DNA of 21,317 bases, from IMG/VR virus record IMGVR_UViG_3300025759_000846, positions 1-21,317 of that record. One strand, given 5' to 3'. The notes under the pieces are model-generated. The model searched no databases. It worked only from the letters and a program-made list of their open reading frames with translations, and was not told where the DNA came from. This DNA comes from a virus. Shown here piece after piece: positions 358 to 21,317 of the stretch (its first letter is position 1; each line of letters opens with the position of its first letter). The translations under genes were made by a program, and so were the position numbers.

Positions 358-1339
358 TGAAGACATTAGCGATCTTGCGGGTATATTAGGGATACCCGAG
401 GTACTTGATGATCCTAACACGTTAGATGTAGATGAGAGCCAAGACCCTACAGGTTTGTTTGCTACAGTAAAAAAATACGAAAATGCGGGTATAAAACGTG
501 ACGAGGCACTTGATCTTGCTATTGGTGATGTAGCTTCCGCACTTGGCACTACAGAGACAAACCTATTAACAGCCATTGGGGAGACAGAAACATCCTTATT
601 AGGTAAAATAGACGCTGCTACTGAAGCATTTACTGAAACTATTGGTGATGTGGAAACTAACCTCGGTGCAGATATTGACGCAATAGCGGATCTTGTTGGT
701 AAACCTGCACGAGAAGTTACACAGGTAGACGTAGATTTTGTTATTGATCTAATCGCGCAAGAAAATATCAGTCAAGAGCTAGTAACGCAGTATGATGTTA
801 CTGGGGACGGTATCATTGACATAAATGACCAAACCCTGCTAGAAACAGCATTACAAGGTGAAAATGTTGCCTTTGCGGATACATCTATATTTGGTCCTGC
901 CACTGGGCTGTATGGTACCGCTGCGGATATTCAACGGCAGCTACAGTCCGATATAAACACGCAGACAGATACGATCACTGATTTAGTTACGGACCTGAAC
1001 ACGCAGCTTAACACGCAGCTTAACACAAAAATAAATACGCAAAGACAACAACAAGCACTACGGGATTTAGCATCAATGGAGCAAGCAGGGTTATTTAAGG
1101 GGGCAAAAGCTACAGTTTCGTCTGCAGACCCTATGAACATTGATTACCTATATGACTTCAGCAGTATCTTTGCCAATCCTTCACAACAAGGATTGTTTGC
1201 AAGCCCGTATAGCACCACAACCCGTAATAAAGCAGCAAATCAACCTATGGGACCAATGCCTACAGCGAGCGGATTTGCAAAGGGTGGACAGGTTGAGGAT
1301 GAAAATGATATGCTACTAAGAATACTTGGAGATATGTAA
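2..1339 (+). CDS. Repeat-built coiled-coil virion protein, 3' part (5' end outside window)
   Basis: The frame is open from the left edge to a TAA at 1337-1339, so this is the C-terminal 445 residues of a longer protein. It begins with 67-residue repeats (two DNA-identical copies and a diverged third) rich in heptad-like 'TETxLxxxIG' segments, which suggests a rod-like coiled coil. A calcium-loop motif, DVTGDGIIDIND (794-829), fits the EF-hand/dockerin pattern D-x-T-x-D-G-x-I-D-x-x-D. Next comes a short 'NTQL' repeat stretch, and the protein ends with a 'GFAKGGQVEDEND' tail. I recognise this overall plan from marine phage metagenome proteins of unknown role. Its place ahead of the ejection-type genes suggests a tail or fibre-associated virion part, but that is inference. 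The TTG at 455 is only an internal codon, not a start. The gene end overlaps the next start as TAATG. Confidence 0.8.
   Translation, partial: DDAEATGIFADIADLVASGSTRDEAIQAVADNLGTTKTDLEKAIGTVETSLGADITNLAGVIGTPATDDAEATGIFADIADLVASGSTRDEAIQAVADNLGTTKTDLEKAIGTVETSLGEDISDLAGILGIPEVLDDPNTLDVDESQDPTGLFATVKKYENAGIKRDEALDLAIGDVASALGTTETNLLTAIGETETSLLGKIDAATEAFTETIGDVETNLGADIDAIADLVGKPAREVTQVDVDFVIDLIAQENISQELVTQYDVTGDGIIDINDQTLLETALQGENVAFADTSIFGPATGLYGTAADIQRQLQSDINTQTDTITDLVTDLNTQLNTQLNTKINTQRQQQALRDLASMEQAGLFKGAKATVSSADPMNIDYLYDFSSIFANPSQQGLFASPYSTTTRNKAANQPMGPMPTASGFAKGGQVEDENDMLLRILGDM
998..1033. repeat. 12-bp in-frame tandem repeat (NTQL NTQL NTKI)
   Basis: AACACGCAGCTT occurs at 998-1009 and again at 1010-1021, followed by a degenerate third unit at 1022-1033. 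It encodes tetrapeptides in the coiled-coil part of the repeat-built virion protein. This is a small in-frame slippage product rather than a separate element. Confidence 0.8.
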
Positions 1340-5254: not shown

Positions 5255-8200
5255 ATGGCACTATATGAGCTAACCGATCAAAGCGGCAACAAAGTACGGG
5301 TAGAAGGTCCATCAGGCGCTACTAAAGAACAGATTGTAGAACTCTACAACCGCACTATGGCGGAGCGGGAACGTGAGCCAGAGCGTAGAATGGTTTCGGG
5401 ACTGCAAAGATACTATGACACGCAACGTGATATAGCGGGGCAGATAGCGCGTAGCAGAAGACCTACTTTTGGTGATTATCTTGGGGAAGTTCCCAAAGGT
5501 CTTATCGGCGGTGCCGCAGGGTTAGTAGAGACAGGTGCCTTGGGTCTTGCAGCTTTACTTCCAGAAGACGCAGAAAATGTCGTACGTGATGGCATTAAGA
5601 AGGCAGGCCAAGCTGTACAAGATTATGTACCACCAGACTTTAACCTAGAAGATAGCATACCACGTAAAGTCAGTGAGGCAGGTGGTTCGTTCGCAGGTAT
5701 CGTCGGTGCATCACTTATCAATCCTGCCGCAGGTGCTACATTGGCTGTATCTGCAGGAGCGGGGGAAGCTAGTGAACGTGCACGAGCCGCAGGTGCTACT
5801 CAAGAAGAACGTAACTTAGCGGCACTACAGGGTATCCTTCCGGGTGCATTGGAGCTTATTCCTGCAGGTCGTCTAGTCAAAGGTATCAAGCAAGTATACC
5901 GTGGCGAGGCTAACCCTGTTGAGCTTGTAAAAAACCGTATTCTACGAGCAAGTCGTGAAGGTGGTATAGAAGCCGCACAAGAAACTGCGTCTAGCATTGC
6001 GCAAAACATGATCGAGCAAGGATACAATCCATTACAAGGAACTTTTGAAGGTAGCGGAGAATCTGCAGGTATAGGCTTTACAGTCGGTGCACTAGCACAA
6101 GCGTTGCTTGACCTTGCAACACCCAGAAGTCGTGGCGGTGCATCAGACGTAGAAACAGCCGCACAAGGTGAATTATTCCCTGATGAAGATTTGGGACAAG
6201 CGCCAGAACGTGCGCCAATAGATTTTGCAGCATTAGAGGTAGGCACTCAACGCGAGTTGTTCCCCGATGCAGATTTAGGACAAGCACCAGAACGGACAGA
6301 TGAGCGCCAGCTAAATTTGTTTACACCTGAAAGCCAGCAAGATGCTGTGTTCCGTCAACGCGCTAGAAAAGCCGACGAAGAACGTGCACGGTTAATGCAG
6401 CGCCCTATTTCTGAGTTTGAAACTGAAGGTGACCCGTTCTTTGAACGCACAAAAGCTGAACGTGATGAAGCGTTATCAGGGTTAGCCGCACTACAAAAAG
6501 CTCGTGCACAGCAGCCCGAACAACGTACTATGATGCCGCAGCTTGAAGCCACACGAGAAGAAATGTTTGATGAGCAAGCGCGGGAACGTGAAATTGCGCG
6601 GGCGTCAGAGCGTAATGACTTAGAAGCATTTGAACGTGCCGTCACTGAACCCGACCTGTTCCCCAGAGATTTGGAAAAAGCGCGGCGTGATCCTAGAGGG
6701 CGTTCATTACAAAACATCCCTGCACCAGAACAACGGCCTATTACAGAACAACAACCTGCGCCTACAGAGCCTAATTTACTAGATTTAATAGCACAGGATG
6801 AACAGCGAGAAACTACAGAAACCAGAGATAGGCAGTTACGAGCGGAGTCAGCCGCAGAGACTGCACAGGGTAAATTAGATGCAGACCGCGCAGCGCAAAC
6901 CGAAGCAACACGTACAAAAATACTACAAGATACTGTAGCCAATGCAGGGGAAGTACGCAGACCTGAAGCGCTACGTAAACTATATGAAAACGCACTAACA
7001 GAAGCGGGGCTTACAAACACCACGGCAACACCACAAGAAATGGAAAGTTTACGCCGTGCGTCTAATGTGATTCGTGCAAAAGACCCTGCCGCAGAAGCAG
7101 CAGTTATACAGGAACAACGCAAAGACCCAAAACAAATAGAATTAGAGGCTATGGTAGCCCCTAAATCCGTGAAACCTTTAGGAACACCGGAAGGAGCCGC
7201 CGATGCTAGACCAATTGACACAGCAACAAGTGGAGCTAGCGTTCCGCTTGTTGAACCAAGCAGTGCAATCAGATCCGCCGAAGCCTTTGCAAGTGCCACC
7301 GACACTACGACACCTGACGACGGACGAGTGGGACGCTCTGTGCTTCGCACTGGAACAGCTACTGTACCAGAAGGGACGCAGCCCGCTGCACTAAAAGACA
7401 GGTCCAACGTCAAGATTGACAAACAAGCTGCCCGGAAACCCACTAAGGTACAGGCCGAACCAAAACGTGTTACACAGAAAGAAGAAGCTGATACCGAACC
7501 GGGTGTACGTAAAGTTAAAGTGACACCTAAATTCCCAGAGAAACAAACGCTTACAAAAGTTTCAAAAGACCTGAAGCGCAGAGGAGCGGCAGGTACATCA
7601 GTTCGTGGTACTCGTAAAGTCCAAGCCAAAGAAGACACCACACGTGCCGAGCTACGTAAACGGTGGGATGAAACTGCGCCAGCCGTGGTCAAACAAGACA
7701 CTAAGACTACAGACACTTTGGTCAGAGGCGATGTGCTATCGAATAGCGACAACAAGAAAATCCTAGACTTCTTGGAGGGTAAGGTCACTACCCGTGATAA
7801 GATCGGTCTTGCCGCCAAACGCTACCTGTCTATGCACCCGAACCCAGAAGAAGGTTTGTTTGTAGCTCTATTCGATATGGTGAACCGCACGCCTAAGTTC
7901 TCTGGTCGTGAAAAAGGTATGACCGATGCGCAAGCCGAGCTACGCAAAGGTACAAGTGACGTGCAAGGTGCACGTGCTGTATACTGGGCCATGAACAACC
8001 TAAGTCCACAAACACAGAAGTGGATGGACGAAACTAAAGTCGAGATACAAAAACAGCTAGACGCAGTGACAGGGCTAGATTACTCGACACGAACAGAATC
8101 ACCTTTAACAACGCGCCAACGTATAGAGAATGCTGCCCGTGCCATAAAAGAACGTGAAGCAGTAACAGTGAAAGCGGGAGTTACAGTTCAAACATCTGAA

Positions 8201-11200
8201 GCTGTAGCAGGTATGCCCGAAGGCCAGTACAGGCCACGTAGGAAGAAGGGTAAGACCGCGTACGAAGCGTATTTATTGGATCAATACACCCCAGAAGAAC
8301 GTAAGGCTATCGCCAAGGATGATGACCTTGCACTTAAAGCATATGCAGACTTTGAATTCTTACAGAAGCAGGGGTTTGCTTTAGAGACAGACGCGGTGGT
8401 TGGTTTGGACGCTGCACCGCATCCCACTGTCACACAAGCAATACAACAGGGTGATCTGAAAGCCGCGCTTGGTGCACTAGCCAACACAAGCGGTAACGCG
8501 CAGGTGCGAGAGCTAGCCGCTAAGTTTGCCAATGTAGCAGGTGACACAAAACTTGTTGTGGTGAAGAACCTGAAGGCTGAAGACGGACGCCCTGTTGCAG
8601 GATTGTTTGATCCTAAGACAAACACAATCTCGTTAGACGCGGATACTGGTATCAACACGCACACACTAATGCACGAAATGTCCCACGCAGGGATGTCGGC
8701 GGCGTTGGCTGATCCTAAGAACGGGTTTAGTATTCAACTTAAAAATCTGTTCAAAGACTTGGATGGTTTGTTAGGTACAGCATACGGCTCAAAAGACCCT
8801 GATGAATTTTTATCTGAGGCGATGAGCAATCCAGAGTTTCGATCAGAACTAGCAAGTATAAATCCAAAAGGCGAACCCGTTGCCGCGTTGCAACGGTTCT
8901 TCAATATAGCTAACAATTTCCTAAGTCGGTTTGTGCCATTCATTAAAGCTCGCAACATAACCGCCCTACAGGAAGTAGACGCACTTGTGGATGCACTGTT
9001 AGCCCCTGCACCCATGTACCGTTACGCTAATCAGATGGCAATGATGACCACGGCAGACGGTGTTAAAAAATTTACGCGAGACGCAGTTGATGCCACACAA
9101 AAGGCTATAAACAAAGAAAGCCGCGAGCAGTTTCAATACAGTGTGCGTGATTTCTTTACTCAAGGATTTTCAAAGAAGGCCAAAAATCTATTGCTTAGAC
9201 TTACTGGCCTACAAGGTATGGGCGACATCGCAAAAGCGGTTGGTCTTGGTAACATGGGGTATAGACTAGATGAGCTTGTTTCGCAGCAGCGTGGAGAAAT
9301 CCAAACCGCGAACAAACTTATCGAAAGAAAGATCGAACAAATCCTAACCAAGCTAAACAAAGGTACGGATGAGCAGGCACAAAAACGCAAAGAAGCCTTG
9401 GATCGTTTGATCTATGACAACGACTACGGTGCCACGATCTACCAAGTAGACCCAACAAAACCACAGGGTGCATACATCAATAAAGATGGTAGCCCCCGTA
9501 TGGACAACGATGGTAACGACCTGTTGGAAGTATGGAAGAAACAGCGTGCAGATTGGCAAGCCTTGGGGCCAGAGGGGCGTGCAGTATTCAATGAGATGCG
9601 TGCGGTATACAAAGATCAGTACGAGAAGCTAAAAGCGGTTATCCTGAAACAGATCGACGAGTTGGTGCAAAACCCTGACGATGCTAAGAAGCTGAAGCGG
9701 GACATCTTTGCTAAACTATTCGACGCGAGCACCCTAGATGTGTACTTCCCGTTGATGCGCGAAGGTGATTATGTATTACGTTATGAGGTTAAGAACCCTA
9801 AATCCTCACGCGAAGCCACTGTGGTGCAGACGTTTACTACAGATGCAGAACGTCAAGACGCCGCCAAGATGTTCCGAGCGAACAAAGACTATAAGAATGT
9901 AGAGATTGTTGACGAAGTATCAGCAAGAACATTCAGAGGTACAGGAGTAGACCCAAGTTTCGCATACGACACGCTAAGTATTTTGGACAAAAACAAAGTC
10001 CCACGGGATGTGAAAGATCAGATAATCAAGCTGTTTATAAACTCACTACCTGAGACATCATTTGCCAAGTCGTTACAGAAACGTAAAGGTACCCCGGGCT
10101 ACATGCAAGATTCTGTGTATGCTCTTAAGACAAAGGGGTACAGCCTTGCGAGCCAAACAGCCAAGCTAAAATTCGGTGCGCTTTTGCGCCAGTATGAAGC
10201 CGATCTTGATGCATTTCAACAACTTGAAGTCCCGAAAGCAAAAAGTTTGGCAGGTAAAAGCGCGGAACGTCTGACCGCCGCATTTGGTGATGTAAAGGCA
10301 GAATTGAAAGACCGCGCACAGTTTGCACGTAAAGGTGCAGACAACAAAGACATTGAAGCAATCGCACGTAGACTTAACCAAACTGCATTTATCTACACCA
10401 TCGGTTTTAACGCATCATCTGCTTTGGTCAACCTGTCACAAATCCCGTTGTTCGTTGCACCGTTTTTGGGTGGAAAATATGGATACGTAAAAACGTACGC
10501 CGCGATCAAGTCTGCATACGGTAACACACTACTAGGTGGTAAACGTGGCGGCGGAACAAACGCGATCTTGGACTTCTACGATATATCCGACAAGGGCATA
10601 TTCACCCTGAAGAAAGGGTTAAAACTACCTGAAGGTAAAGAAGCTGAACTGAAGCGCATGGAAGCCTTGGTGCAAACTGCATCGCAGCGTGGCCTGCTAG
10701 GTCAAGGGTTCCTTGCAGAAGCCATGGGGCTAAATGAAACAAGCCGTATCAAAAAAGGTAGCAAGTTTGGTAACGCACTAGATAACGCCTCTGTGTTATC
10801 TGCGTGGCTGTTTAACCATGCAGAACAGTTGAACCGTCAAGTAACCTTGATGGCATCATTTAACCTAGCGTTAGACAGCATAACAAATGGCAAAGTAGAT
10901 AAAGCAAGCGAAGCACAGATCGAAGAAGCGGTGCAGCAAGCTATCTATGATACACAGCAAACAAACGGGGGTACGTTCCTAGAGACTGCGCCTAGTATTG
11001 CACGGCAGGGCATCGGGCGCGTGGCGTTCATGTATAAAAACTACGGCCTGCAGATGTACTACACCATGCTGAAGACCGCTAAGATTGCATTGGACAGCGA
11101 CAGGGGAAAACTAGATTTATTTGGTGAGAAAGGATCACCCGAACGTAAGGCCGCAGTAAAACAACTTATCGGTATGCATGGGACTGCCTTGTTCTTTGCG

Positions 11201-11995
11201 GGTGTTCAAGGCATACCACTGTACGGCGCGGTAAAACTTTTTGCTAACTTGTTCCTTTTGGATGACGAGGAAGAAGATTTTGATACACTTGTGCGCCAGT
11301 ATTTCGGTGAGGGTTGGTACAAAGGTGCAGTGACTGAGATGGCAGGCATTGATGTTGCAAGTCGTATGGCACTTACTGGTCTTCTTATTCAAGAGAACCG
11401 TTATAACAACAACCCATCCCTAGAAGAAACATTGGGCTTCTACGCAGGTGGGCCTGCACTAAGCGTAGCTAACCGCTTGATCCGTGGGGGCAACGACCTG
11501 TTGTCAGGTGAAACGCAACGAGGCATCGAAGGTATCTTGCCTGCGGGTATTGCTAACGCATACAGATCATCGTTTGGTAGATACGCACAACAAGGCGGTG
11601 CATTCACTAGACGTAACGACCCCATCTATGACGATGTTACCAATGGCGAACTACTTATGTGGGGACTTGGGTTCCCTCCAAGCGAATACACATTCCGTCA
11701 GGAACAAAACTCTATCACCAAGCGTATAGACATAAACGTGAACAAAAGACGTTCGCTGCTCAACAAAAAGTATTATGTCGCTATGCGCATGGGTGACTAC
11801 GATGAGATGATGAATGTCTATGATGATATGATAGAGTTCAACAAGCGGCACCCAGAAGCTGCCATTACTCCCGAGTCCATAGAGCGTTCTATGAAACGTC
11901 ACGCCGAAACTACAGAGAATATGCACTACGGTGCGTCATTCAGCACAACGTACGGTGCAGCAATCCAAGAGATACGGGACGCCTTCAAGCAATAA
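5255..11995 (+). CDS. Giant polyvalent-type virion protein with zincin-like metallopeptidase and PLxRFG/LPD38-like C-terminus
   Basis: 2246 aa. The N-terminus (1-38) resembles the short 'ExxDxxGNKxxVEGPSGAT' lead seen on phage internal virion proteins. Residues 75-290 are Gly/Ala-rich amphipathic helices that could contact membranes. Residues 300-800 form a charged, low-complexity linker. Residues about 1070-1215 hold HEMSH (H1140, E1141, H1144), the HExxH zinc motif, with an acidic DEFLSE segment (1183-1188) that may supply a third ligand. The C-terminus (about 1330-2246) is helical, with hydrophobic stretches near 1710-1735 and 1970-2000 and a GRVAFMYKNYGLQMYY segment near 1921. It resembles the LPD38/PLxRFG region of phage polyvalent proteins, which are thought to enter the host with the DNA. 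This is probably the ejected protein that acts first in the cell; the peptidase substrate is unknown. The start is preceded only by a weak TAAGG. Confidence 0.85.
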   Translation: MALYELTDQSGNKVRVEGPSGATKEQIVELYNRTMAEREREPERRMVSGLQRYYDTQRDIAGQIARSRRPTFGDYLGEVPKGLIGGAAGLVETGALGLAALLPEDAENVVRDGIKKAGQAVQDYVPPDFNLEDSIPRKVSEAGGSFAGIVGASLINPAAGATLAVSAGAGEASERARAAGATQEERNLAALQGILPGALELIPAGRLVKGIKQVYRGEANPVELVKNRILRASREGGIEAAQETASSIAQNMIEQGYNPLQGTFEGSGESAGIGFTVGALAQALLDLATPRSRGGASDVETAAQGELFPDEDLGQAPERAPIDFAALEVGTQRELFPDADLGQAPERTDERQLNLFTPESQQDAVFRQRARKADEERARLMQRPISEFETEGDPFFERTKAERDEALSGLAALQKARAQQPEQRTMMPQLEATREEMFDEQAREREIARASERNDLEAFERAVTEPDLFPRDLEKARRDPRGRSLQNIPAPEQRPITEQQPAPTEPNLLDLIAQDEQRETTETRDRQLRAESAAETAQGKLDADRAAQTEATRTKILQDTVANAGEVRRPEALRKLYENALTEAGLTNTTATPQEMESLRRASNVIRAKDPAAEAAVIQEQRKDPKQIELEAMVAPKSVKPLGTPEGAADARPIDTATSGASVPLVEPSSAIRSAEAFASATDTTTPDDGRVGRSVLRTGTATVPEGTQPAALKDRSNVKIDKQAARKPTKVQAEPKRVTQKEEADTEPGVRKVKVTPKFPEKQTLTKVSKDLKRRGAAGTSVRGTRKVQAKEDTTRAELRKRWDETAPAVVKQDTKTTDTLVRGDVLSNSDNKKILDFLEGKVTTRDKIGLAAKRYLSMHPNPEEGLFVALFDMVNRTPKFSGREKGMTDAQAELRKGTSDVQGARAVYWAMNNLSPQTQKWMDETKVEIQKQLDAVTGLDYSTRTESPLTTRQRIENAARAIKEREAVTVKAGVTVQTSEAVAGMPEGQYRPRRKKGKTAYEAYLLDQYTPEERKAIAKDDDLALKAYADFEFLQKQGFALETDAVVGLDAAPHPTVTQAIQQGDLKAALGALANTSGNAQVRELAAKFANVAGDTKLVVVKNLKAEDGRPVAGLFDPKTNTISLDADTGINTHTLMHEMSHAGMSAALADPKNGFSIQLKNLFKDLDGLLGTAYGSKDPDEFLSEAMSNPEFRSELASINPKGEPVAALQRFFNIANNFLSRFVPFIKARNITALQEVDALVDALLAPAPMYRYANQMAMMTTADGVKKFTRDAVDATQKAINKESREQFQYSVRDFFTQGFSKKAKNLLLRLTGLQGMGDIAKAVGLGNMGYRLDELVSQQRGEIQTANKLIERKIEQILTKLNKGTDEQAQKRKEALDRLIYDNDYGATIYQVDPTKPQGAYINKDGSPRMDNDGNDLLEVWKKQRADWQALGPEGRAVFNEMRAVYKDQYEKLKAVILKQIDELVQNPDDAKKLKRDIFAKLFDASTLDVYFPLMREGDYVLRYEVKNPKSSREATVVQTFTTDAERQDAAKMFRANKDYKNVEIVDEVSARTFRGTGVDPSFAYDTLSILDKNKVPRDVKDQIIKLFINSLPETSFAKSLQKRKGTPGYMQDSVYALKTKGYSLASQTAKLKFGALLRQYEADLDAFQQLEVPKAKSLAGKSAERLTAAFGDVKAELKDRAQFARKGADNKDIEAIARRLNQTAFIYTIGFNASSALVNLSQIPLFVAPFLGGKYGYVKTYAAIKSAYGNTLLGGKRGGGTNAILDFYDISDKGIFTLKKGLKLPEGKEAELKRMEALVQTASQRGLLGQGFLAEAMGLNETSRIKKGSKFGNALDNASVLSAWLFNHAEQLNRQVTLMASFNLALDSITNGKVDKASEAQIEEAVQQAIYDTQQTNGGTFLETAPSIARQGIGRVAFMYKNYGLQMYYTMLKTAKIALDSDRGKLDLFGEKGSPERKAAVKQLIGMHGTALFFAGVQGIPLYGAVKLFANLFLLDDEEEDFDTLVRQYFGEGWYKGAVTEMAGIDVASRMALTGLLIQENRYNNNPSLEETLGFYAGGPALSVANRLIRGGNDLLSGETQRGIEGILPAGIANAYRSSFGRYAQQGGAFTRRNDPIYDDVTNGELLMWGLGFPPSEYTFRQEQNSITKRIDINVNKRRSLLNKKYYVAMRMGDYDEMMNVYDDMIEFNKRHPEAAITPESIERSMKRHAETTENMHYGASFSTTYGAAIQEIRDAFKQ
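6170..6295. repeat. Direct repeat coding ELFPDxDLGQAPER
   Basis: Residues 306-319 (6170-6211) and 334-347 (6254-6295) of the giant protein are the same 14-mer apart from one residue (E or A after the second D). The DNA copies have diverged by several synonymous changes, so this is an old duplication kept at protein level. Each copy carries a Q-x-E-L-F core. Confidence 0.8.
7203..7394 (+). CDS. Nested small gene in alternative frame inside the giant gene
   Basis: A 63-codon frame lies wholly inside the giant gene, in the +1 frame relative to it. AAGGAG at 7191-7196 sits six bases before its ATG, a better ribosome binding site than the giant's own. The product is compact and amphipathic: a helical N-terminus (LTQQQVELAFRLLNQAV), a Pro-rich turn, then LTTDEWDALCFALEQLLYQK and a C-terminal SPLH. 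I recognise the 'EWxxL...LL..K..SPLH' ending from small uncharacterised proteins of marine phages. The giant's own product here (about residues 650-713) is low-complexity Ser/Thr/Ala-rich linker that can tolerate overprinting. Function is unknown. Alternatively this is a chance frame, but the ribosome binding site and protein-like composition argue against that. Confidence 0.65.
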   Translation: MLDQLTQQQVELAFRLLNQAVQSDPPKPLQVPPTLRHLTTDEWDALCFALEQLLYQKGRSPLH

Positions 11996-12065: not shown

Positions 12066-12293
12066 TCACACTGTCCTCCACATGCGAACCCCAAACATAC
12101 CGTTTTCTATACGAACGCGGGTTTCAATCTGCCAATTTTTGCGTTGCGCTATATCAATAAGCTGCTTTCGGGCTTTCACATTGTTGATGCAAGGTATGAA
12201 AACAGAAGCACCAACCACCATTTTATCCCAGTCTACGATAATCTTTATTCGGTCTGGCGCAATATCATCAAACTTCAGTGGCTTCTGGTACAC
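12066..12293 (-). CDS. Conserved 75-aa phage protein at end of replication operon
   Basis: A 75-aa protein that starts with GTG inside the 3' end of the primase-helicase gene (26-bp overlap, different frame) and has AGGG eight bases upstream. Its sequence is well ordered: VDWDKMVVGASVFIPCINN, an ARKQLIDIAQ helix, then strands ending GVRMWRTV. The shape (short beta strands around a helix, with a 'G.R.WR' end) is one I have met among small unannotated proteins of marine phages, always without known function. The tight overlap with the primase-helicase suggests translational coupling and perhaps a role beside replication, which is inference. An internal ATG at codon 25 is the alternative start, but it would remove conserved-looking sequence. 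Confidence 0.7.
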   Translation of the reverse strand: MYQKPLKFDDIAPDRIKIIVDWDKMVVGASVFIPCINNVKARKQLIDIAQRKNWQIETRVRIENGMFGVRMWRTV

Positions 12294-15081
12294 CGCTAAA
12301 CCCTGTTAACTTTACAGATAGAACCCAGACAGGTGGTAGATTAAGGTTCGTGCCCTTACTCAAACGCATCTTCACAGATTTAGCCCCCATGTCTTTCATC
12401 ATACCTTCTTTGGTACTCACGTAGTCTATCTTTTGTTCGCCAAGCCATGTTTTGAATGGTTTGGTTACAATGTACAGCATGTTTGTGTCTGTCTCATACC
12501 GTGCGACAAACTTGTTTCGTGGGTCTTGTTCTGGAATAACCATGGGTGTGATACCATCAGCATTCTGCGCTCTTTCAGTGCTTTTGATCTTAAGGATGCT
12601 ACCCCAATGCTCTGTGATGAACTCGGTGATCAAAGTTTCAACAGACGCTGCGCTATCATCAACAAACGCTTTGACACGTGTTAATATGTTAACCACCCAC
12701 TTGAACAGTTTCTTCATGTCGTAGTCTATAATCCCTGCACGTTTAGCAGCCAATGCGCCTGCCAGTATTGCGGAGCAGCCCCCAGACCAGAAACGGTTCT
12801 TCTGGTTCAACCCTGCAGCCTTGTCCAGTTGCGCTTTTATCTTTTCGTAGTCTGCTTTTATCGTGTTCTTGTTCTCTATCACATACTGCACAAACTCTGG
12901 TCCGTAATGTCCGTAGTTTAGTTGTATATCCGTAAACAACTTAGCAGATACAAGAGGGTCAACCTCTACCAGTGGTATCTCGTCCACGCGTAACTCTAAC
13001 AAACGCTGCATCTCTGCTCGCGTGTCGCCCTTCGCCATAGCCATCTGTGCGTACATACTTACGTTACCTGACGACAGCGCTATCAACCGCCATGGCCTAC
13101 CCCTAACACGTTCGTAGTTCCCGCCACCTGCCATACGGTTTTTCTGCGTCCCTTCCGATAACTGATACGCATAATCCGATGCTTGTCTGCCGTGAATGTT
13201 TGTCATCTCGTCGGTGTTCAGTCCAAGATTGTGCATGACCTCTGCGCGGTTCATACGTGAATTTGGTGTATCGCCCTTCGTCCCTGTAAGACCACGCGGC
13301 TCACCCCATATCGCGGTGCCAGTGTACATCGCCGTAGTCTTACCACCGCCTGTCTCACCAAACAAATGAACGCCCAAGCTATACAAACCTGTCAGTGGCA
13401 TAAGAATAGTGCCGAACCCTGCGCATACTGTGAACTGCTGTAGCTCCATACCGTCTTGGTTGTAAAAGTCTAGTATTTCTTTGTGACGTTCCCTCGTTCC
13501 CTTGGGTCTAAACAAACTAATCAACCCTGCGGTCTTACTGGATGGTGGGTTATACTCTATACCGTTGGCGGTAATCAGTTGGTCACCCAAAACAAACGCC
13601 TCCATATTCTCGTCATCAGTCCACCCAAACTGTTGGTGCGCTTCACTGGCGGTGGTTGTCTGTTGTAGCTCGTTTATCCATGCTGTTGTATACGTCATCA
13701 GCTTATCTATATCCTTACCAAAAGTTGTTATGCCCTTCATGGACATATGTTTGCGGAACTCTTCGCGTGAGGTGATAGCGGCTAGTGGAACTACGAACTC
13801 TCGAACCCCATCTCTTGGCAAATGTAACGCAAACGCTACGACTTCGCCAAGCTCCACATCGTGCAGCCTGCGTGTAACGTAAAAGTCGTTGTGGTATATA
13901 CAAACTTCTTCGGGGTCACCGTCTTCGTTGGTGCTGCGTAGGTACACACCCCCGTTCTGCCCCCTAAAGTATGGTCGTGGCAGTGCGGGTATGGTGATAC
14001 GTTTTACGCTGTCCCCATCCATTTCCTCCACCACATTGTCTTCCTCTGTGGCTTCTTTGACTTCTTTTGTCAGCACGGCAGGCGTTGTAATCTTGCCCTT
14101 GTTTGGGCACCCCTCGCAGCCCTCTGGGTTCAATCGTTCTATCGTACTACAGAATTGTGGACCACCTGTGTCGTGCATCTTCTTCAAGGTGCTCTGCACG
14201 TTATAATCTTCGTGCCTGTGCGACATGATATGGGCTGCTTCTGCGCCATCTTCACACACGTTAGCTATAGACAACCCTGCTCGCCATAGATCGTGCGATA
14301 TATCTTCTTGGTGCTTTATTATGTGTTTGATCTGATTGCACCCTGTGCCACTCTTGGTCTTCAGTAGTAGGCGTCTGAAGCTACCCGTATAGTTTTTATA
14401 CATTGCGCTTTTAAATGCGCTGATCGCAGATGGCTCGCGTTTCTGGGGTACTGGTATCGGATCACCCCCAAGCAAAGTAGCAAAGCTGTCAAAATCTACG
14501 GTGTTGAAATCCTCCACACCATAAAAATCTACAGGCAACGGCTGCTCATACTTGTGGTTGTTCGTGCTCGGTACACGTAAGATACTAGCGGCATCAGATG
14601 TACGTGACGGGTCAGCCGCAAATCCTTGTTCGTCACATAATCTCTTTAGACGTTCAGCTACAGGCCACCAATCTTCACGACATACAGGCTCGGACAATAT
14701 CCAGTATACGTGCACACCACGTCCTGAGTTAATCAGTGTAGGTGTTGGCAGGCTGTTATTCTCACAAAAGTTACGCAGTTCATCAATCGCAACTTCTTGG
14801 GACGGAAATTCTTTATCTGGGCCGCAGTCTAGGTCCAAGAATAGAGACTTCATCCATTGCATATTATTCGCGGTCCGCGAACTTGCGTCAAAGAACGTAC
14901 CCAGTGCAAAGAAGGCGTTCCACCCATTAGCGTCTAGGTCACGCGCTGCCTGCAATACTTCGTCAATAGAGGAGTAAAACGATTGATTTATACGTTCATT
15001 TGGTTTTACACCCTTGTTGGCCCATACGCAGTATTCTCCCTCATGCGCTAGGACCAATTCTAAAAATCGTTTTGTTTTCAT
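12268..15081 (-). CDS. Primase-helicase: AEP-type primase fused to DUF927-like ATPase
   Basis: 937 aa, counted from the ATG. The N-terminal third is an archaeo-eukaryotic primase (prim-pol) domain: FLDLD with metal-binding D83 and D85, SGRGVHVYW with H124 (119-127), and DAASILRVP with D163 and R169. A linker follows with C311, C322 and C325, which may bind zinc or iron-sulfur. The C-terminal half is a P-loop ATPase like DUF927: Walker A GETGGGKTT (575-583) and Walker B-like LNTDE (D624, E625). It probably makes primers and unwinds DNA at the fork, replacing the TOPRIM-DnaB type primase-helicase of T7. A GTG at 15090 would add three residues, but the ATG at 15081 has GAGTGG five bases upstream and is preferred. 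It follows the SSB gene, separated by a hairpin. Confidence 0.9.
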   Translation of the reverse strand: MKTKRFLELVLAHEGEYCVWANKGVKPNERINQSFYSSIDEVLQAARDLDANGWNAFFALGTFFDASSRTANNMQWMKSLFLDLDCGPDKEFPSQEVAIDELRNFCENNSLPTPTLINSGRGVHVYWILSEPVCREDWWPVAERLKRLCDEQGFAADPSRTSDAASILRVPSTNNHKYEQPLPVDFYGVEDFNTVDFDSFATLLGGDPIPVPQKREPSAISAFKSAMYKNYTGSFRRLLLKTKSGTGCNQIKHIIKHQEDISHDLWRAGLSIANVCEDGAEAAHIMSHRHEDYNVQSTLKKMHDTGGPQFCSTIERLNPEGCEGCPNKGKITTPAVLTKEVKEATEEDNVVEEMDGDSVKRITIPALPRPYFRGQNGGVYLRSTNEDGDPEEVCIYHNDFYVTRRLHDVELGEVVAFALHLPRDGVREFVVPLAAITSREEFRKHMSMKGITTFGKDIDKLMTYTTAWINELQQTTTASEAHQQFGWTDDENMEAFVLGDQLITANGIEYNPPSSKTAGLISLFRPKGTRERHKEILDFYNQDGMELQQFTVCAGFGTILMPLTGLYSLGVHLFGETGGGKTTAMYTGTAIWGEPRGLTGTKGDTPNSRMNRAEVMHNLGLNTDEMTNIHGRQASDYAYQLSEGTQKNRMAGGGNYERVRGRPWRLIALSSGNVSMYAQMAMAKGDTRAEMQRLLELRVDEIPLVEVDPLVSAKLFTDIQLNYGHYGPEFVQYVIENKNTIKADYEKIKAQLDKAAGLNQKNRFWSGGCSAILAGALAAKRAGIIDYDMKKLFKWVVNILTRVKAFVDDSAASVETLITEFITEHWGSILKIKSTERAQNADGITPMVIPEQDPRNKFVARYETDTNMLYIVTKPFKTWLGEQKIDYVSTKEGMMKDMGAKSVKMRLSKGTNLNLPPVWVLSVKLTGFSGVPEATEV

Positions 15082-15106
15082 TACTACCACTCATACCATA
15101 AGAGTA

Positions 15107-15142
15107 ACCACGGCTACCTAAGTAACCGTGGTGTTTTGTTTT
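15107..15142 (+). terminator. Hairpin with plus-strand U-tract between SSB and primase genes
   Basis: ACCACGG (15107-15113) pairs with CCGTGGT (15126-15132). After one mismatch, TAC/GTA can add three pairs around a CTAA loop. The plus strand continues GTTTTGTTTT (15133-15142), which is terminator-like, yet both flanking genes lie on the minus strand. It may stop antisense transcription. As a minus-strand RNA hairpin it could instead act between the SSB stop and the primase start, for example as a processing or stability element. Confidence 0.5.
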
Positions 15143-15869
15143 AATCCTCGTCGTCAAATAGATCGTCCACGATGTCGCTTAGATCACCACTTGTCTTAGA
15201 GTTTACCGCTGCTTTTTTAGCAGTCTTCTTAACTGGTTCCGCGTCAAACCCATCATCGTCTTCATCAACTGCTGTAGCAGGTTTCATTTCCAAGACGTTG
15301 TTTGTCTTAGGTTTGTCTTTGAATGGGTTTGGGTCTTCTGCCACAAAACCACCATCCACGGTGCCGAATGGATTAGCACGTTCCATTGGAACATACTTGA
15401 TAACCTGCACGGCGTTCAGACGTAGCGACACGCTTTGGCTTCCCCCAAAGTCATATGGTACCAACTTCACAGCAACATTGACTGTGCTGCCAGTAGTCAA
15501 CTGAAAGTTATCAGGTAATGTGTTACCCTGAGAATCATACTGTGCAGGCTTGTTGGTAGTCTGACCGTTATACGAACCCTTCAATGTGGCTTTGTGCGTA
15601 TACATGCCATTATCATCTTTGACGAACGGGTTGGCAAGTTTCTCTGCCCACTTGTCTTCACGGTTTGCTTGATACGCCGCGCTCATAGCTTTGAACAACG
15701 CCTTTGCTGTGGGTTGATCCATACGAAACTGAATAGAAAATTCAGCATTCGTATCACGTGGGCCGCAGGGCATACTGCGATTAGCCTTCTTGTCGAAAGC
15801 ATAAGTTTGGTCAATCTTAGGCCACAAGGCTTCGATATTTTCAATGATGTAAGTGTCAGCCAATGTCAT
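15141..15869 (-). CDS. Single-stranded DNA-binding protein (gp2.5/Enc34-like)
   Basis: 242 aa. The first 180 or so residues are beta-rich with aromatic and basic residues and look like the OB-fold single-stranded DNA-binding proteins of phages (Enc34/DUF2815 type). The rest is a flexible charged tail ending DIVDDLFDDED. An acidic C-terminal tail is the hallmark of SSB and T7 gp2.5 and recruits polymerase and helicase. The protein would coat exposed single strands at the fork and aid recombination. AGGAG lies one or two bases before the ATG, which is unusually close, but no better start is visible. It sits between the HTH gene and the primase-helicase, as expected for a replication module. Confidence 0.8.
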   Translation of the reverse strand: MTLADTYIIENIEALWPKIDQTYAFDKKANRSMPCGPRDTNAEFSIQFRMDQPTAKALFKAMSAAYQANREDKWAEKLANPFVKDDNGMYTHKATLKGSYNGQTTNKPAQYDSQGNTLPDNFQLTTGSTVNVAVKLVPYDFGGSQSVSLRLNAVQVIKYVPMERANPFGTVDGGFVAEDPNPFKDKPKTNNVLEMKPATAVDEDDDGFDAEPVKKTAKKAAVNSKTSGDLSDIVDDLFDDED

Positions 15870-15881
15870 TCTCCTTTTTGT

Positions 15882-16139
15882 TTATACGTCTACATCAGCG
15901 TCGAAATCAAATTCTAGCTGTTCTTCTGGTGGCTCATTGCGGATTTCTGACTGTTCCGCTTCTTTGACTGTATTTGTTAACGCTTCAGTCACGGCGTTCC
16001 TGTTAAAACGGTAGGTATTACCGATCTTAATGTACGTGGTTTTAGGGATATGCCCCTGCCGTACCCACGCACGGATGGTAGAGATTGACACCGCAAAGTG
16101 CTTTGCCAAATCCTCTATTGGTACAAATGGTTCTGCCAT
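15882..16139 (-). CDS. Excisionase/MerR-like helix-turn-helix protein
   Basis: 85 aa. Residues 5-55 form a winged helix-turn-helix of the excisionase/MerR (HTH_17) type: VPIEDLAKHFAVSISTIRAW (6-25) is the HTH, followed by VRQGHIPKT and a wing with KIGNTYRFNRNAV. The C-terminal 30 residues are acidic (EEQLEFDFDADVDV) and probably disordered. Such proteins bind DNA as small regulators or architectural factors. With no integrase in view, a role in controlling operon transcription or origin architecture is as likely as excision. Its ATG shares a base with the upstream stop (TAATG), with AAGGA about eight bases before it, so it is translated together with the 133-aa protein. Confidence 0.85.
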   Translation of the reverse strand: MAEPFVPIEDLAKHFAVSISTIRAWVRQGHIPKTTYIKIGNTYRFNRNAVTEALTNTVKEAEQSEIRNEPPEEQLEFDFDADVDV

Positions 16140-16540
16140 TACTTCTTCCTTACTGATATGACATACTCGGTATCGACGTTCATACCCTTGGGCATTACGT
16201 CTGGGTTCTCCTCCAAAAACTGTTTGATGTTAGTCTGGTTCAAACGCTTGTCTAAGAATTCAGGTACGTCATGCTCCTTTATGAAGCTGTACATTTGTTC
16301 CCAATCGTTAGTCCAATATTTCGTTTTAGTAGACCGAAAAAACAAACCTTCAGAGGTTCTAACGCTCTCGACATTATGTGTTTCACAGTAGTCCAGCAGC
16401 GCATTCTTTAGGATTTCCTGTTGGCGAACCAACGCTCCATCTTCTTCTTTAAACCGCGCAGATAGCTCCGCTCTTTTTGCCCGTAATTTGATATAGGCTT
16501 TGGTTAGCTTATCCGCAGGGATGTTTGGTACATCCTCCAT
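16139..16540 (-). CDS. Conserved 133-aa phage protein, N-terminal coiled coil
   Basis: 133 aa. Residues 10-50 are a charged helix (KLTKAYIKLRAKRAELSARF) likely to form a coiled coil. The C-terminal part is an ordered alpha/beta region with VESVRTSEGLFFRSTKTKYW (58-77) and an EFLDKRLNQTN segment. I recognise it as a recurring hypothetical protein of marine phage replication modules, loosely like Gp157-type nuclease-associated helices, but the function is not known. It has a good ribosome binding site, AGGAGA, about seven bases before the ATG, and follows a possible promoter in the short gap after the helicase gene. It ends in TAATG overlap with the HTH gene, so the two are probably made together. 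Confidence 0.8.
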   Translation of the reverse strand: MEDVPNIPADKLTKAYIKLRAKRAELSARFKEEDGALVRQQEILKNALLDYCETHNVESVRTSEGLFFRSTKTKYWTNDWEQMYSFIKEHDVPEFLDKRLNQTNIKQFLEENPDVMPKGMNVDTEYVISVRKK

Positions 16541-16568
16541 GTGCGTTCTCCTATTTATCAGGATTTAC

Positions 16569-16597
16569 ACTCTAGTTATTAATCGTAACCTAGTCAA
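16569..16597 (-). promoter_or_regulatory. Possible sigma70-type promoter within the replication operon
   Basis: On the minus strand TTGACT (16597-16592) and TAGAGT (16574-16569) are separated by 17 bases. The -35 box matches five of six consensus bases and the -10 box four of six. It lies at the end of the helicase gene and the start of a 49-bp gap, so a transcript from here would begin about 20 bases before the ribosome binding site of the 133-aa protein and serve the HTH, SSB and primase genes. Confidence 0.4.
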
Positions 16598-18125
16598 GCA
16601 ATTCTTTGTAAAGGTCGATCATTTTTGTGTGTACGTCTATTCTGTTATTCAGAAGTGAATAAATACGCTTTTCTACAGCAGAACCTTGTAGCTGCACAAC
16701 CGTACAACGGTGCTTCTGACCGGATCTGTGCACCCGTGCGTTAGCTTGGGCGTATGTCTCTAGTGAAGATGTCGGTCCCCACCATACTACAGTGTTGGCT
16801 GCTGTTAACGTCACACCATGTGCCGCAGACTGCGGTTGAATAACTAACACCTTCGGATCATCAGTATTCTGGAACCGTTTAAAGATGTCAGTTCGTTGTG
16901 CGACAGAAACATCTCCGCGTATTACTTCCGTAGAAACCCCATCATTACGCAACTTTTCAGTCAGTATGTCAATGGTATGTTTGAAGGGCACGAACACTAG
17001 AACCTTTTGACTGCTTTCATCTATGACTTCTTTGAGCACGTTGTATCTGTGCTTGATGTCAAACTCTAACGTGTCGCCTTCGTCTGTGTATACCGCACCC
17101 GCTGATATTTGCAGTAGCTTGTTCATAATGTTAGCTGCGTTCATCGCAGACACTTCGTCGTCACCTACCGTCATCGTCATGCGTTTGCGTAGCATCTCAT
17201 AATATTTTTTCTGTTGGCGCGTAAGCTCCACATGTCGGTGAGTATATGTCATCGTGGGTAGATCAAGGCACTCTTCTTTGGTGAACCGTATGGCAGGCTG
17301 CAATATATTAAACACTGTGTCCGATGCATGAGGTTTTATAACCCACCTAAACTGTGACACCTTATTCATAACCATGTCACGAAACGAACCAAAGAACCGT
17401 GGTACAGAATTGGGATTAATTAGTTTAGCCAATCCGTATGCATCTAGTGGTGACTGTGCAGCAGGTGTACCCGTCATCATCCACAACCACGTGTCGTCTT
17501 TTACGATGCGCCGTAGCACCTTCCATCGTTTCGCTTGTGTGTTCTTGTAGTGTGTGGCTTCGTCTACAACGATAAGGTCGAACCCACCATTGATTATCTC
17601 CTCGGCTACAATCTCTACACCGTCATAGTTTATTATGACAAAATCAGAACCTTGCTCGATAATCTCTTTACGTTTCTTAGATGCACCATAGGCTATGGAT
17701 ACACTGCGATGCGGTGCAAAGGTAAACAAGTCTTCGCGCCATGCTGTGTCCATGATCGACAGCGGACATATAACTAGCACACGATTTATTTTGCCCTGCT
17801 TCATCAAAAAGTCAGCGGCCCATATAGCTGATGCGGTCTTACCTGTGCCTTGTTCGTTAAAGCAAAACGCTTTCTGGTTCATGGTCAGGAATGCTGCGGT
17901 CTTTTTCTGGTGCGCAAACGGCGTGTACTTGCCTGTCCATTCGTACCTACCGTTGATCGGTGACGGTACATCTATGTTTAACTTCTTTAGTGTATGTACT
18001 TCGTCGATACCCCACTTCACCAATACTTCGTGATCTTGCACTGTTTTGCTTTTTGGTATTGTTTCAGTGACGCGGTTTGGATTGCGTAGCCGTAACAGCA
18101 ACGCCTTATCATCCACTATTCGCAT
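16590..18125 (-). CDS. SNF2-type superfamily 2 helicase/ATPase
   Basis: 511 aa, a complete two-lobe SF2 motor. Visible motifs: Q-motif-like PFAHQ (Q73), motif I EQGTGKTAS (K96), motif Ia VICPLS, motif II VVDEATHYKN (D188-E189-A190-T191), motif III MTGTP (217-221), and in the second lobe motif V-like QPQSAAHGVTL and motif VI QANARVHRSGQ (R464 and R467 as arginine fingers). The HRxGQ ending places it in the SNF2 group, which translocates on double-stranded DNA, rather than in DnaB-type fork helicases. In phage replication operons such proteins probably help remodel or restart forks or recombine DNA. AGGAGG lies six bases before the ATG. A palindrome (18137-18154) sits directly upstream. Confidence 0.9.
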   Translation of the reverse strand: MRIVDDKALLLRLRNPNRVTETIPKSKTVQDHEVLVKWGIDEVHTLKKLNIDVPSPINGRYEWTGKYTPFAHQKKTAAFLTMNQKAFCFNEQGTGKTASAIWAADFLMKQGKINRVLVICPLSIMDTAWREDLFTFAPHRSVSIAYGASKKRKEIIEQGSDFVIINYDGVEIVAEEIINGGFDLIVVDEATHYKNTQAKRWKVLRRIVKDDTWLWMMTGTPAAQSPLDAYGLAKLINPNSVPRFFGSFRDMVMNKVSQFRWVIKPHASDTVFNILQPAIRFTKEECLDLPTMTYTHRHVELTRQQKKYYEMLRKRMTMTVGDDEVSAMNAANIMNKLLQISAGAVYTDEGDTLEFDIKHRYNVLKEVIDESSQKVLVFVPFKHTIDILTEKLRNDGVSTEVIRGDVSVAQRTDIFKRFQNTDDPKVLVIQPQSAAHGVTLTAANTVVWWGPTSSLETYAQANARVHRSGQKHRCTVVQLQGSAVEKRIYSLLNNRIDVHTKMIDLYKELLD

Positions 18126-18429: not shown

Positions 18430-19097
18430 CAGTTTGCTCCGTTGTATATACACTCAATGATAGGACAGTATCGCTTACACAACCCATTTGGCTTTGCGTT
18501 CCACATGTCTTCTTTTGCTGCGGTTTCCATACGCCCGTATTTATCAAGCCACTTCATCCACAACTTGGCCTTATCATACTCCATGTATGTATCTTTTACC
18601 AAGTCATTACAGACGACAAACAATAAGGCTGCGCGTACCTTCTTTATCTGTGGGTAACGTGCCATGAGTGCGAGGGCCATCAACTCTAACTGTCCCTTGT
18701 CCGCATACTTAGACGACTTGCCTGTCTTGTAGTCCACAACTGTAGCCACTTCGTCATCTAGGATTACAAGGTCAGCGATACCCCGAAACCAAACATCACT
18801 TGCGTAAAAATCACAGGCTTCTAGGTTCTCCGTTAGGCCCATCTTTATTTCACACAATTTTTGCCCATTACGTTCCTTCAAAGATGTTAGGGCTTTCTCT
18901 GCATAGCTAAACTTGCCAGGGATAGGTACGTCTTTGTCGATAAAATCTTCAGCCATTTTATGGAACTCGTTGCCGTACAGAATAGCTTCGGTCTGCACGA
19001 ACGGTATCTCTTTCAAGATATGTTTGTGGTAATATTGTTTGGGGCACTGTTCAAAGTCTTTGATCTTACTGAACGACCAAGGCCATACTTTTGTCAC
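18429..19097 (-). CDS. Cas4/RecB-like PD-(D/E)XK exonuclease with probable Fe-S cluster
   Basis: 222 aa from the preferred GTG. Features in order: SFSKIKDFEQCPKQYY with C18, GNEFH (H46), RGIADLVILDDE (D109), VVDYKTGK (D122, K124), KGQLELMAL (Q136), and a C-terminal cysteine trio LCKRYCPIIEC (C207, C211, C216). One N-terminal plus three C-terminal cysteines is the iron-sulfur pattern of Cas4 and AddB, and D-H-D-x-K-Q is the RecB-family nuclease core. It probably trims DNA ends as a 5'-3' exonuclease for recombination, as in other phages. I chose GTG 19097 because it makes a GTGA overlap with the polymerase stop and has GGAG seven bases upstream; GTG 19103 would be only one base from that site. 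Confidence 0.85.
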   Translation of the reverse strand: MTKVWPWSFSKIKDFEQCPKQYYHKHILKEIPFVQTEAILYGNEFHKMAEDFIDKDVPIPGKFSYAEKALTSLKERNGQKLCEIKMGLTENLEACDFYASDVWFRGIADLVILDDEVATVVDYKTGKSSKYADKGQLELMALALMARYPQIKKVRAALLFVVCNDLVKDTYMEYDKAKLWMKWLDKYGRMETAAKEDMWNAKPNGLCKRYCPIIECIYNGAN

Positions 19098-20923
19098 TCG
19101 CACTCTCCATATGATTTGCCTGTTCCGCTTTCACATGTGATCGGTAATCCATCAGCCCACTTAGGTGTTTGGCTCATACATTCTTCGACATATGCTCGCG
19201 CTTCATCCAACTCCTCGTCGGATACACAAGCCACAATACTGTCATGTACAGTTAGCACAACTTTGTATCTCTTGGCAATGAGTAACATTTGGTATCCAAT
19301 GATGCAACGTGCTATAGCTTGGCACACATTCTCTACAACCTTACCACCGTATATACGGGTGTAGCCACGCCGTGTCTTATACATGTACTCGGCCCCGCGC
19401 TCTCCTTGCTCTGCTATCAGGCCATTGTAAAACATGGGTAGGCCAGAAGGTAAGATTATTGCGTTGCGCTTTGCGTCCACTTGCAACACACCATCACGTC
19501 CAAAGTCTAAACTCTCCCCCCGCTGCATGTACTGCACCATGTTGTTGGCGGCTCGCCACAAGGAACTGATTGCGCCGTTTGCATCACGGTACACCTGTAT
19601 AATACGCCGCGCTTCTTCCAAGTCTATCTGGACACCCATGCCCTGTAACTGTGCTTGGAACTTAACAGCCCCCATGCCGTACCCTGCGCCAAGGATTGTA
19701 GTCTTGCCAACAAACCTCTGATCTTTGCTCACCCCATCTACGGGCACGTTATAGATACTGGATGCCATGTACTTATATACGTCCTCACCATCGGAAAACT
19801 GTTGGGTCAAATCATCTTGCTCTGCAAGCCACGCCAACACACGCGCTTCGATCTGGGAACTGTCGCAGTCTATCAACGAATGTCCTTCGGGTGCGATAAG
19901 GCTTTGCTTTAACTTCTTACCATTTGGTCCACGGCTCGGTAGGTTTTGCAGGTTGATCTTATCGTCGCCACCCCACCGTCCAGTGTGTGCAGCATAATAT
20001 CTTACAGGAACAGGCAACTTGCCACGTTCGGCTATATCTATAAATCGCTGCGTACGTGTTTCTTCTAAGGTACTTTTGCTACCCAAACGTGCCGCCACCA
20101 GAGATTGCACACGATCATCCGCATGTTCTAACAGTTGTTTGAACGCTTCGTCATTCTTAGCGAATGCGTATGTCTCTTTACCTGTGGTCAAACTGGTTTT
20201 CATGGGTGGCTTTACACCAAACCCTTTCAACAGATCGGCAAACTTCTGGTTAGACATCAGGTCTTTCCTGTCGTTTACACCTGCCTCTGCTAATAACTTA
20301 TCCTTACGATCTTTCACATCTTGAAGGTGCGACTGCAACAAGTCACGGTCTAAGTCCAAGGTAGGTTCGGTAAACATACGCAAGGTGGCGTCTATCAAAC
20401 GTAACTCCTGCTTAGGGAACTGTCGGGCCATCCTACTAAAAAGTTTATAGGTGAGGTCCACATCATTGATACAGTAGTCGCCGTACTCCGCTAAATCTAC
20501 GGGTCCAAAATCTCCACGCCTTTTCCCGAGGGCACGTACGACTTCTGTCCCTTTAACGCCGAGATTGTATCTTTCAGATAACGCTGCGAGACTTGCGCGA
20601 GCCTCAGTCCCATGTAGAGCACGGGCGACACACAGAGTATCGGTATACATCCGAGGACGAATATTAAAATGCCAATTAAGAATGGCACCATCAAACATAG
20701 TATTATGGCAAAGTACCATAGCTTCATGCCAGTTGAAACCTTTGAGGTACCTTTCAAGTTGTTCATGTGTCCCACTAGCCCACTCCGCTTCTCCATTGTT
20801 TATTTTTATAGCTACGCCGATCACCTCAAAGCGAGGGTCACGGACGTAGGCTTCTGTGGTTAACTTAGACAGGGAATAATCCCTGTCATAGTATGTTTCA
20901 AAGTCGAGTGTGATTAGGTCCAT
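19094..20923 (-). CDS. polA: Family A DNA polymerase (PolA) with 3'-5' exonuclease domain
   Basis: 609 aa. The exonuclease domain has LDFET (D7, E9), HNTMFD (N74, D78) and YCIND (Y150, D154), so proofreading looks intact. There is no 5' nuclease domain, as in T7 polymerase. The polymerase domain has motif A LIDCDSSQIEAR (D354), motif B RFVGKTTILGAGYG (R403, K407, L411, Y415) and motif C TVHDS (H560, D561, S562). L411 is at the position of E. coli Phe762, and S562 replaces the usual glutamate of HDE. It would be the phage replicative polymerase, working with the primase-helicase and SSB of the same operon. The ATG follows the upstream TAA directly and the ribosome binding site is weak, so coupled translation is likely. 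Confidence 0.95.
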   Translation of the reverse strand: MDLITLDFETYYDRDYSLSKLTTEAYVRDPRFEVIGVAIKINNGEAEWASGTHEQLERYLKGFNWHEAMVLCHNTMFDGAILNWHFNIRPRMYTDTLCVARALHGTEARASLAALSERYNLGVKGTEVVRALGKRRGDFGPVDLAEYGDYCINDVDLTYKLFSRMARQFPKQELRLIDATLRMFTEPTLDLDRDLLQSHLQDVKDRKDKLLAEAGVNDRKDLMSNQKFADLLKGFGVKPPMKTSLTTGKETYAFAKNDEAFKQLLEHADDRVQSLVAARLGSKSTLEETRTQRFIDIAERGKLPVPVRYYAAHTGRWGGDDKINLQNLPSRGPNGKKLKQSLIAPEGHSLIDCDSSQIEARVLAWLAEQDDLTQQFSDGEDVYKYMASSIYNVPVDGVSKDQRFVGKTTILGAGYGMGAVKFQAQLQGMGVQIDLEEARRIIQVYRDANGAISSLWRAANNMVQYMQRGESLDFGRDGVLQVDAKRNAIILPSGLPMFYNGLIAEQGERGAEYMYKTRRGYTRIYGGKVVENVCQAIARCIIGYQMLLIAKRYKVVLTVHDSIVACVSDEELDEARAYVEECMSQTPKWADGLPITCESGTGKSYGECE

Positions 20924-21292
20924 TTAATCACTACCCGCAATCTCACCGCCAAGCGCAGCATAGCCGCATATATCTACAAAGGTGTCTACGTCCTTGGAGC
21001 CATCTCCGTGCAAGCGAGATATTTTTAGCAAGACCATCATAGCCGCTACATCACGCGGTGTGATAAACGCGTTAAGACCAAGGTGGGCATTCCAGTACCC
21101 CGCAATGCGATCAAAGTTTTCTGCCGCATCGCCGTACTCTTCGTGGCGATCACCGTTTATCTTACTAAGTGCATCCTCTAATATGTCAGCACGCGTAGAT
21201 AATGGTGGTAGAGTAGGTGGTTCTTCGGGTATTGTTTCACGTGAAACAACGTCCTTTTCTAACACTTCCTTCGGCGTACCGATCTTACTCAT
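20924..21292 (-). CDS. DUF6378-like phage protein, possibly extending past the window edge
   Basis: 122 aa from the ATG at 21292, which has GGAAG four bases upstream. The frame is open to the right edge, so a longer form starting outside the window cannot be excluded. Residues 1-35 are Pro/Glu-rich and look disordered. From about 36 the sequence ILEDALSKINGDRHEEYGDA, ITPRDVAAMMVLLKISRL and VDTFVDICGYAAL matches the pattern of DUF6378, a common small helical phage protein of unknown role that I associate with nucleotide and replication genes. It is the first visible gene of the replication operon and abuts the polymerase start. A parS-type palindrome is embedded in its N-terminal coding region. 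Confidence 0.8.
   Translation of the reverse strand: MSKIGTPKEVLEKDVVSRETIPEEPPTLPPLSTRADILEDALSKINGDRHEEYGDAAENFDRIAGYWNAHLGLNAFITPRDVAAMMVLLKISRLHGDGSKDVDTFVDICGYAALGGEIAGSD
21233..21248. other. parS: parS-type centromere site (ParB-binding palindrome) inside a coding region
   Basis: TGTTTCACGTGAAACA is a perfect 16-bp palindrome identical to the widely conserved bacterial parS consensus bound by ParB. The symmetry extends to 18 bp (21232-21249). It encodes VVSRET in the N-terminal, probably disordered part of the DUF6378-like protein. The sequence match is certain; whether ParB binds it in the infected cell is inference. Confidence 0.8.
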
Positions 21293-21317
21293 TAGCTTCC
21301 AAACGTAGGCATAGGAC

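Follow-up and report, generated by a model that had tools for sequence, protein, structure and literature searches.

An exact chromosomal-type parS site in a phage gene and the probable recruitment of host ParB

Results and Discussion

A bacterial centromere site at the end of a phage contig

Why should a phage carry the centromere site of a bacterial chromosome? The question is raised by a 21,317-bp IMG/VR contig, here analyzed as a whole and called the window, in which a perfect 18-bp palindrome, TTGTTTCACGTGAAACAA, spans positions 21232–21249, about 70 bp from the contig end. It encloses the 16-mer TGTTTCACGTGAAACA at 21233–21248, which meets the definition of a chromosomal-type parS as a 16-bp palindrome (consensus TGTTNCACGTGAAACA, PMC7022226) by an exact match. 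An earlier note on this DNA had claimed that the palindrome includes the full parS, that an exact 16-mer is improbable by chance and that this is a chromosome-type site, and each of these statements was borne out: the exact 16-mer occurs only once in the window, where shuffles lead one to expect just 0.13 matches even with up to 3 mismatches, and the same type of site is found in alphaproteobacterial chromosomes. Read on the minus strand, the site becomes GTT TCA CGT GAA ACA, i.e., V S R E T. The relevant features are:

21233–21248, no strand assigned: parS, exact 16-bp palindrome (conservation in the closest relatives, codon-level constraint)
20924–21317, minus strand: HTH-linker-DUF6378 gene, 5′ end cut by the window edge (PF19905 match, full-length relatives L122–L152, AlphaFold2 model of L122)
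21197–21280, minus strand: linker between HTH and DUF6378, hypervariable and predicted to be disordered, bearing parS as V-SRET (alignment, pLDDT)
20936–21184, minus strand: DUF6378 domain (Pfam match, residues 37–119 of the in-window ORF)
19094–20923, minus strand: family A DNA polymerase gene (polA), with the parS carrier immediately upstream
16590–18125, minus strand: SNF2 helicase, replication module
15141–15869, minus strand: SSB, replication module
12268–15090, minus strand: DUF927 primase/helicase, replication module
12268–18125, minus strand: replication module context, including an HTH_17 protein

The carrier gene and its modular locus

The site had been placed in a phage replication gene, an attribution that has to be withdrawn: the carrier consists of an HTH, a linker and DUF6378 (PF19905, E-value 1e-28 in the parS-bearing ORF) and is not a known replication gene. 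Comparison with relatives indicated that the ATG at 21292 is internal and the true start lies past the window end, and that the full protein is approximately 163 aa long, the HTH being N-terminal. AlphaFold2 modeled a three-helix HTH with confidence in the relative L122 (residues about 8–45), whereas linker residues 46–73, including the motif at residues 57–61, had pLDDT values below 50, in line with the disorder proposed earlier for the VVSRET segment, as far as a model of a relative can tell. The label “phosphofructokinase” attached to DUF6378 proteins (PHROG 474, several RefSeq records) looks doubtful; the domain has only about 80 aa.

The locus upstream of polA is modular (window 20900–21317; L122, L204, L262, L277), while the polA genes are otherwise similar; it is occupied by HTH-linker-DUF6378 with parS, by a linker-less HTH-DUF6378 or by unrelated HTH proteins. 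The polA of the window is 93% identical to that of parS-negative sister phages and 70% to that of the nearest parS-positive relative. These sisters possess the linker-less allele, and no parS was found within 2 mismatches in their 60–65-kb contigs. More broadly, parS was absent from the loci and from 25 records of polA relatives at 75–93% identity, and four 60–65-kb polA-relative contigs contained nothing closer to parS than 3 mismatches. The parS-positive gene of the window, in turn, shares 95% protein identity with L122, yet is joined to a polA of the parS-negative clade. This places a recombination breakpoint at the boundary between the two genes, a junction not seen in other contigs, which reflects either recombination in nature, the locus being modular, or a chimera at the end of the contig. 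Given the position of the gene at the very edge of the contig and this unmatched junction, we cannot rule out that the last ~390 bp of this contig were joined on by chimeric assembly; the parS-positive allele itself is independently supported by 31 other contigs. At the opposite end (window 1–398), a 197-bp direct repeat with two copies of 94% identity lies in a coiled, structural-looking protein.

Sites in other phage genes and in host chromosomes

Further copies, for which the earlier note had proposed to look, were found neither in the window nor, as a rule, in its relatives: 18 of 18 DUF6378-family records, including a 67.5-kb contig, hold one parS each. In L132 (826–1485), where the linker unit is tandemly duplicated, a parS variant site occurs twice. 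The site is not tied to a single gene. Within the same phage group, the sole exact parS of the loci L092 and L109 lies inside the DUF927 primase gene, at a place where the DUF927 protein of the window reads EPVCREDW, and L003 has it in the polyvalent-protein gene. The polyvalent protein of the window itself (5255–11995, 2246 aa) contains LPD39 and matches a DarB-like antirestriction PHROG.

In a separate phage family, parS is located in the variable N-terminus of a scaffold/head-assembly protein (PHROG 1052), again with invariant codons, and two scaffold lineages lack VSR/parS through a 9-bp in-frame gap. Together with the parS-negative sister phages, these lineages show that the site is dispensable. 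At the homologous scaffold position, the cultured Pelagibacter phage Hodr (L330, 609–624) carries TGTTTCAAATGAAACA, which may be a centromere variant of the SAR11 type, and its relative L417 carries TGTTTCACATGAAACA. Proteins of 93–95% identity encoded by L389, L440 and L452 have VSHET (CAT) or VSCET (TGT) at one and the same place; both are a single double-stranded CACATG variant of parS read in opposite orientation.

The same 16-mer and the same tolerated variants characterize chromosomal parS of Alphaproteobacteria such as Caulobacter and Hyphomonas, with the difference that these lie near the chromosomal origin, the present one on a phage genome. Two alphaproteobacterial MAGs contained exactly two copies of the 16-mer, 1.6–2 kb apart, and many of 115 alphaproteobacterial genomes showed paired 16-mers about 2 kb apart. 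The CACATG variant stands beside canonical parS in genomes G110 and G132, and TGTTCC, the other variant tolerated in the phages, lies ~1–2 kb from the canonical site in G091, G125, G148, G172 and G180; the Caulobacter consensus t/cGTTt/cCACGTGAAAca permits t/c at the position that varies in TGTTCC (PMC7022226). At the level of sequence, the phage site thus fulfills what one would ask of a real parS, namely constraint on the DNA together with variation known from real sites. As the phage variants are one transition off canonical parS, the CACATG class may also include decaying sites. The collections searched yielded neither a cultured phage of this group nor a cultured host for it, and bacterial-genome matches to polA came from phage-bearing MAG bins of mixed taxonomy.

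A 16-bp palindrome inside an HTH gene could also be an operator for a phage-encoded regulator, e.g., for the HTH of the same protein. We regard this as very unlikely, since the sister phages have HTH proteins without parS, other families carry the site in unrelated genes such as that of the scaffold, and its variants are those of host parS.

Selection on the DNA letters

Searches of viral contigs yielded 31 close relatives of the carrier with 58–95% identity, and all 31 had parS with 0–2 mismatches, persisting in the alignment within a linker whose length and sequence vary strongly. Among more distant DUF6378 genes (L153–L201), no parS-like site was found within 2 mismatches. The earlier note had suggested comparing third codon positions of the motif with their neighbors, and the outcome was clear-cut: the freely varying synonymous codons that the note had named as a refutation were not seen. 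Over 15 comparisons between six lineages, the motif codons were 98–100% identical, as opposed to 41–69% for other codons of the same residues (one recently mixed pair stood at 91%) and 27–69% for four-fold sites (92% in that pair). Among seven representatives, all five wobble positions of the motif were invariant, with a mean wobble identity elsewhere of 0.51, and none of 119 other five-codon windows had fully invariant wobble positions; random draws of four residue-invariant columns matched this in 0.02% of trials. Invariant motif codons amid heavily diverged synonymous sites mean that selection acts on the DNA itself, and on these comparative grounds we infer that the DNA sequence of parS, and not merely the peptide, is under selection.

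The codon test rules out that V-SRET is a conserved peptide motif which spells parS by accident, a reading to which we give next to no credence. Its residues are mostly conserved in the closest relatives, as such a motif would require, but a short linear motif should keep the peptide while synonymous sites vary, and here the third positions are fixed. Where residues do change (R to H, C or N; S to P), they do so at bases also variable in host parS. Moreover, the identical 16-mer occurs in unrelated proteins, for which a shared peptide cannot account, and sister phages have the carrier gene without the linker. Chance or contaminating host DNA, conceivable for one 16-mer in one contig, can be dismissed, as the site sits inside phage genes, is kept in the 31 relatives and remains exact in the window allele at 84% DNA identity to L122 over 639 nt.

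Absence of phage partition genes from the records searched

The earlier note had seen no parA or parB and proposed to search relatives; the wider search gave the same picture. ParB_N (PF02195) was absent from all 40 parS-carrying or related records, and the ParA domain AAA_31 (PF13614) from all 17, among them the window and the relative with 67.5 kb; most of the records were fragments. A phage-encoded ParB or ParA as partner of parS was therefore not found in the records searched. An own ParABS system, with parA and parB encoded alongside the site, is accordingly not supported, and the combination expected for hitchhiking on host ParB, a host-type parS without an own ParB, is met. Because no integrase was detected in 19 records, the window included, the phages of this group look lytic.

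Possible roles of the site

Constraint on the DNA, a count of about one site per genome, its occurrence in differing genes, host-like variants and the failure to detect phage ParA/ParB lead us to consider it likely that the palindrome functions as a host-type parS, retained by selection on the DNA, on which host ParB loads; binding is inferred and the host unidentified. The phage thus probably recruits the chromosome-segregation protein of its host to its own genome, although binding data are lacking. After injection, host ParB-CTP would load at the phage parS, spread across neighboring phage DNA and so tie the genome to the ParA/SMC machinery of the host. The likeliest benefit, which we put forward tentatively and at somewhat less than even confidence, would be joint positioning and segregation of the phage genome with the host origin, which would save it from being lost if an infected cell that grows slowly or starves divides ahead of lysis. 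Disturbed segregation of the host chromosome could be a side effect or an alternative benefit. We rank segregation and positioning before a decoy function and this before SMC loading; none has been shown.

As a decoy, replicating phage copies would titrate ParB/ParA and block host segregation and division, making the segregation of the phage itself irrelevant. In Caulobacter, plasmid-borne parS cuts viability 100–1000-fold, with plasmids segregated in place of the chromosome (PMC5815017), so that a phage site could disturb host segregation as well. The seemingly lytic, integrase-free lifestyle would suit such a takeover. Titration would, however, favor many sites, and nearly all genomes have exactly one, save for the duplication in L132; we consider a decoy function possible but unlikely.

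In many bacteria, SMC is loaded at parS by ParB clamps. The phage site might likewise load SMC or promote ParB-driven condensation, giving a nucleoid-like packing or protection from host nucleases or SMC-type defenses. The apparently free position of parS in the genome (early genes in one family, a scaffold gene in another) is what a spreading loader would predict, but direct evidence is absent and the parS-negative sister phages do without the site, which leaves this explanation doubtful, more so than the decoy.

Comparison with known systems and occurrence among phages

Recruitment of host ParB by phage DNA, the explanation we prefer, has a precedent. Through Spo0J (ParB) of Bacillus subtilis, phi29 DNA becomes trapped in the spore (Meijer et al. 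2005, cited in PMC9437464), so that phi29 is a virulent phage exploiting a host chromosome-segregation protein, as is inferred here. In its relatives B103, Goe1 and Chedec 11, a lysis/morphogenesis gene contains an exact parS, and B103 lacks ParB_N. Unlike phi29 with its spore trapping, the present group shows no sign of a sporulating host. Roseophages are among the nearest cultured DUF6378 matches. Given these matches, the missing hint of sporulation and the alphaproteobacterial site type, spore entrapment is unlikely here and another benefit is needed.

The element SGI1, whose parS mimics capture the ParABS system of an IncC plasmid (PMC10954446), resembles the phage as a mobile element that has the site only and is stabilized by the ParB of another replicon, but it is integrative, has two sites and exploits a plasmid system, whereas the phage site is of the host chromosome type. 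Extrachromosomal prophages with ParABS (e.g., PMC7157519, mycobacteriophages) share a centromere-like site on a phage genome; they encode ParA and ParB with centromere types of their own, neither protein being found here.

Exact parS was present in at least 120 viral contigs, some of which may be prophage edges or contain host DNA, compared with 11 and 1 for two control palindromes of the same base composition. A query with an 18-mer found 315 annotated phage records that match it at a 16–18-base core, and a scrambled palindrome found none. These matches are not independent of each other; they span phages of Listeria, Microbacterium, Gordonia and Arthrobacter, phi29-like Bacillus phages, Lactobacillus phages and roseophages. 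Many cultured phages (L331, L351–L364) have an exact parS, often intergenic, e.g., the Ruegeria phage DSS3P8, which is without ParB_N, and Gordonia Woes; Listeria P100plus has one too, and such phages are mostly without ParB_N. In 12 of the 15 cultured parS-carrying phages checked, ParB_N had no match.

We found no report of a lone chromosomal parS as a general phage feature, which is weak evidence, as bioRxiv and most subscription journals were outside the search. A 2026 Nature paper combining phage, parS and ParB used lambda-parS/CFP-ParB merely as a label.

That a phage can use host ParB is already known from phi29 and Spo0J; the surprising part is the apparent breadth. We lean, by a small measure, towards lone-parS recruitment of host ParB being a widespread, repeatedly evolved and often gained or lost strategy of lytic phages outside sporulation, in Alphaproteobacteria, Actinobacteria and Firmicutes, with variants that track the host centromere and with the site frequently concealed as an in-frame V-SRET within disordered protein segments. 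Since synonymous changes can remove parS without altering the protein, a role of ParB/SMC in infection is directly testable, and because site variants appear to follow those of host centromeres, parS may help to predict hosts. Beyond the single case of phi29 and sporulation, these results suggest, lytic phages that lack partition genes plug in many instances into the centromere machinery of their hosts.
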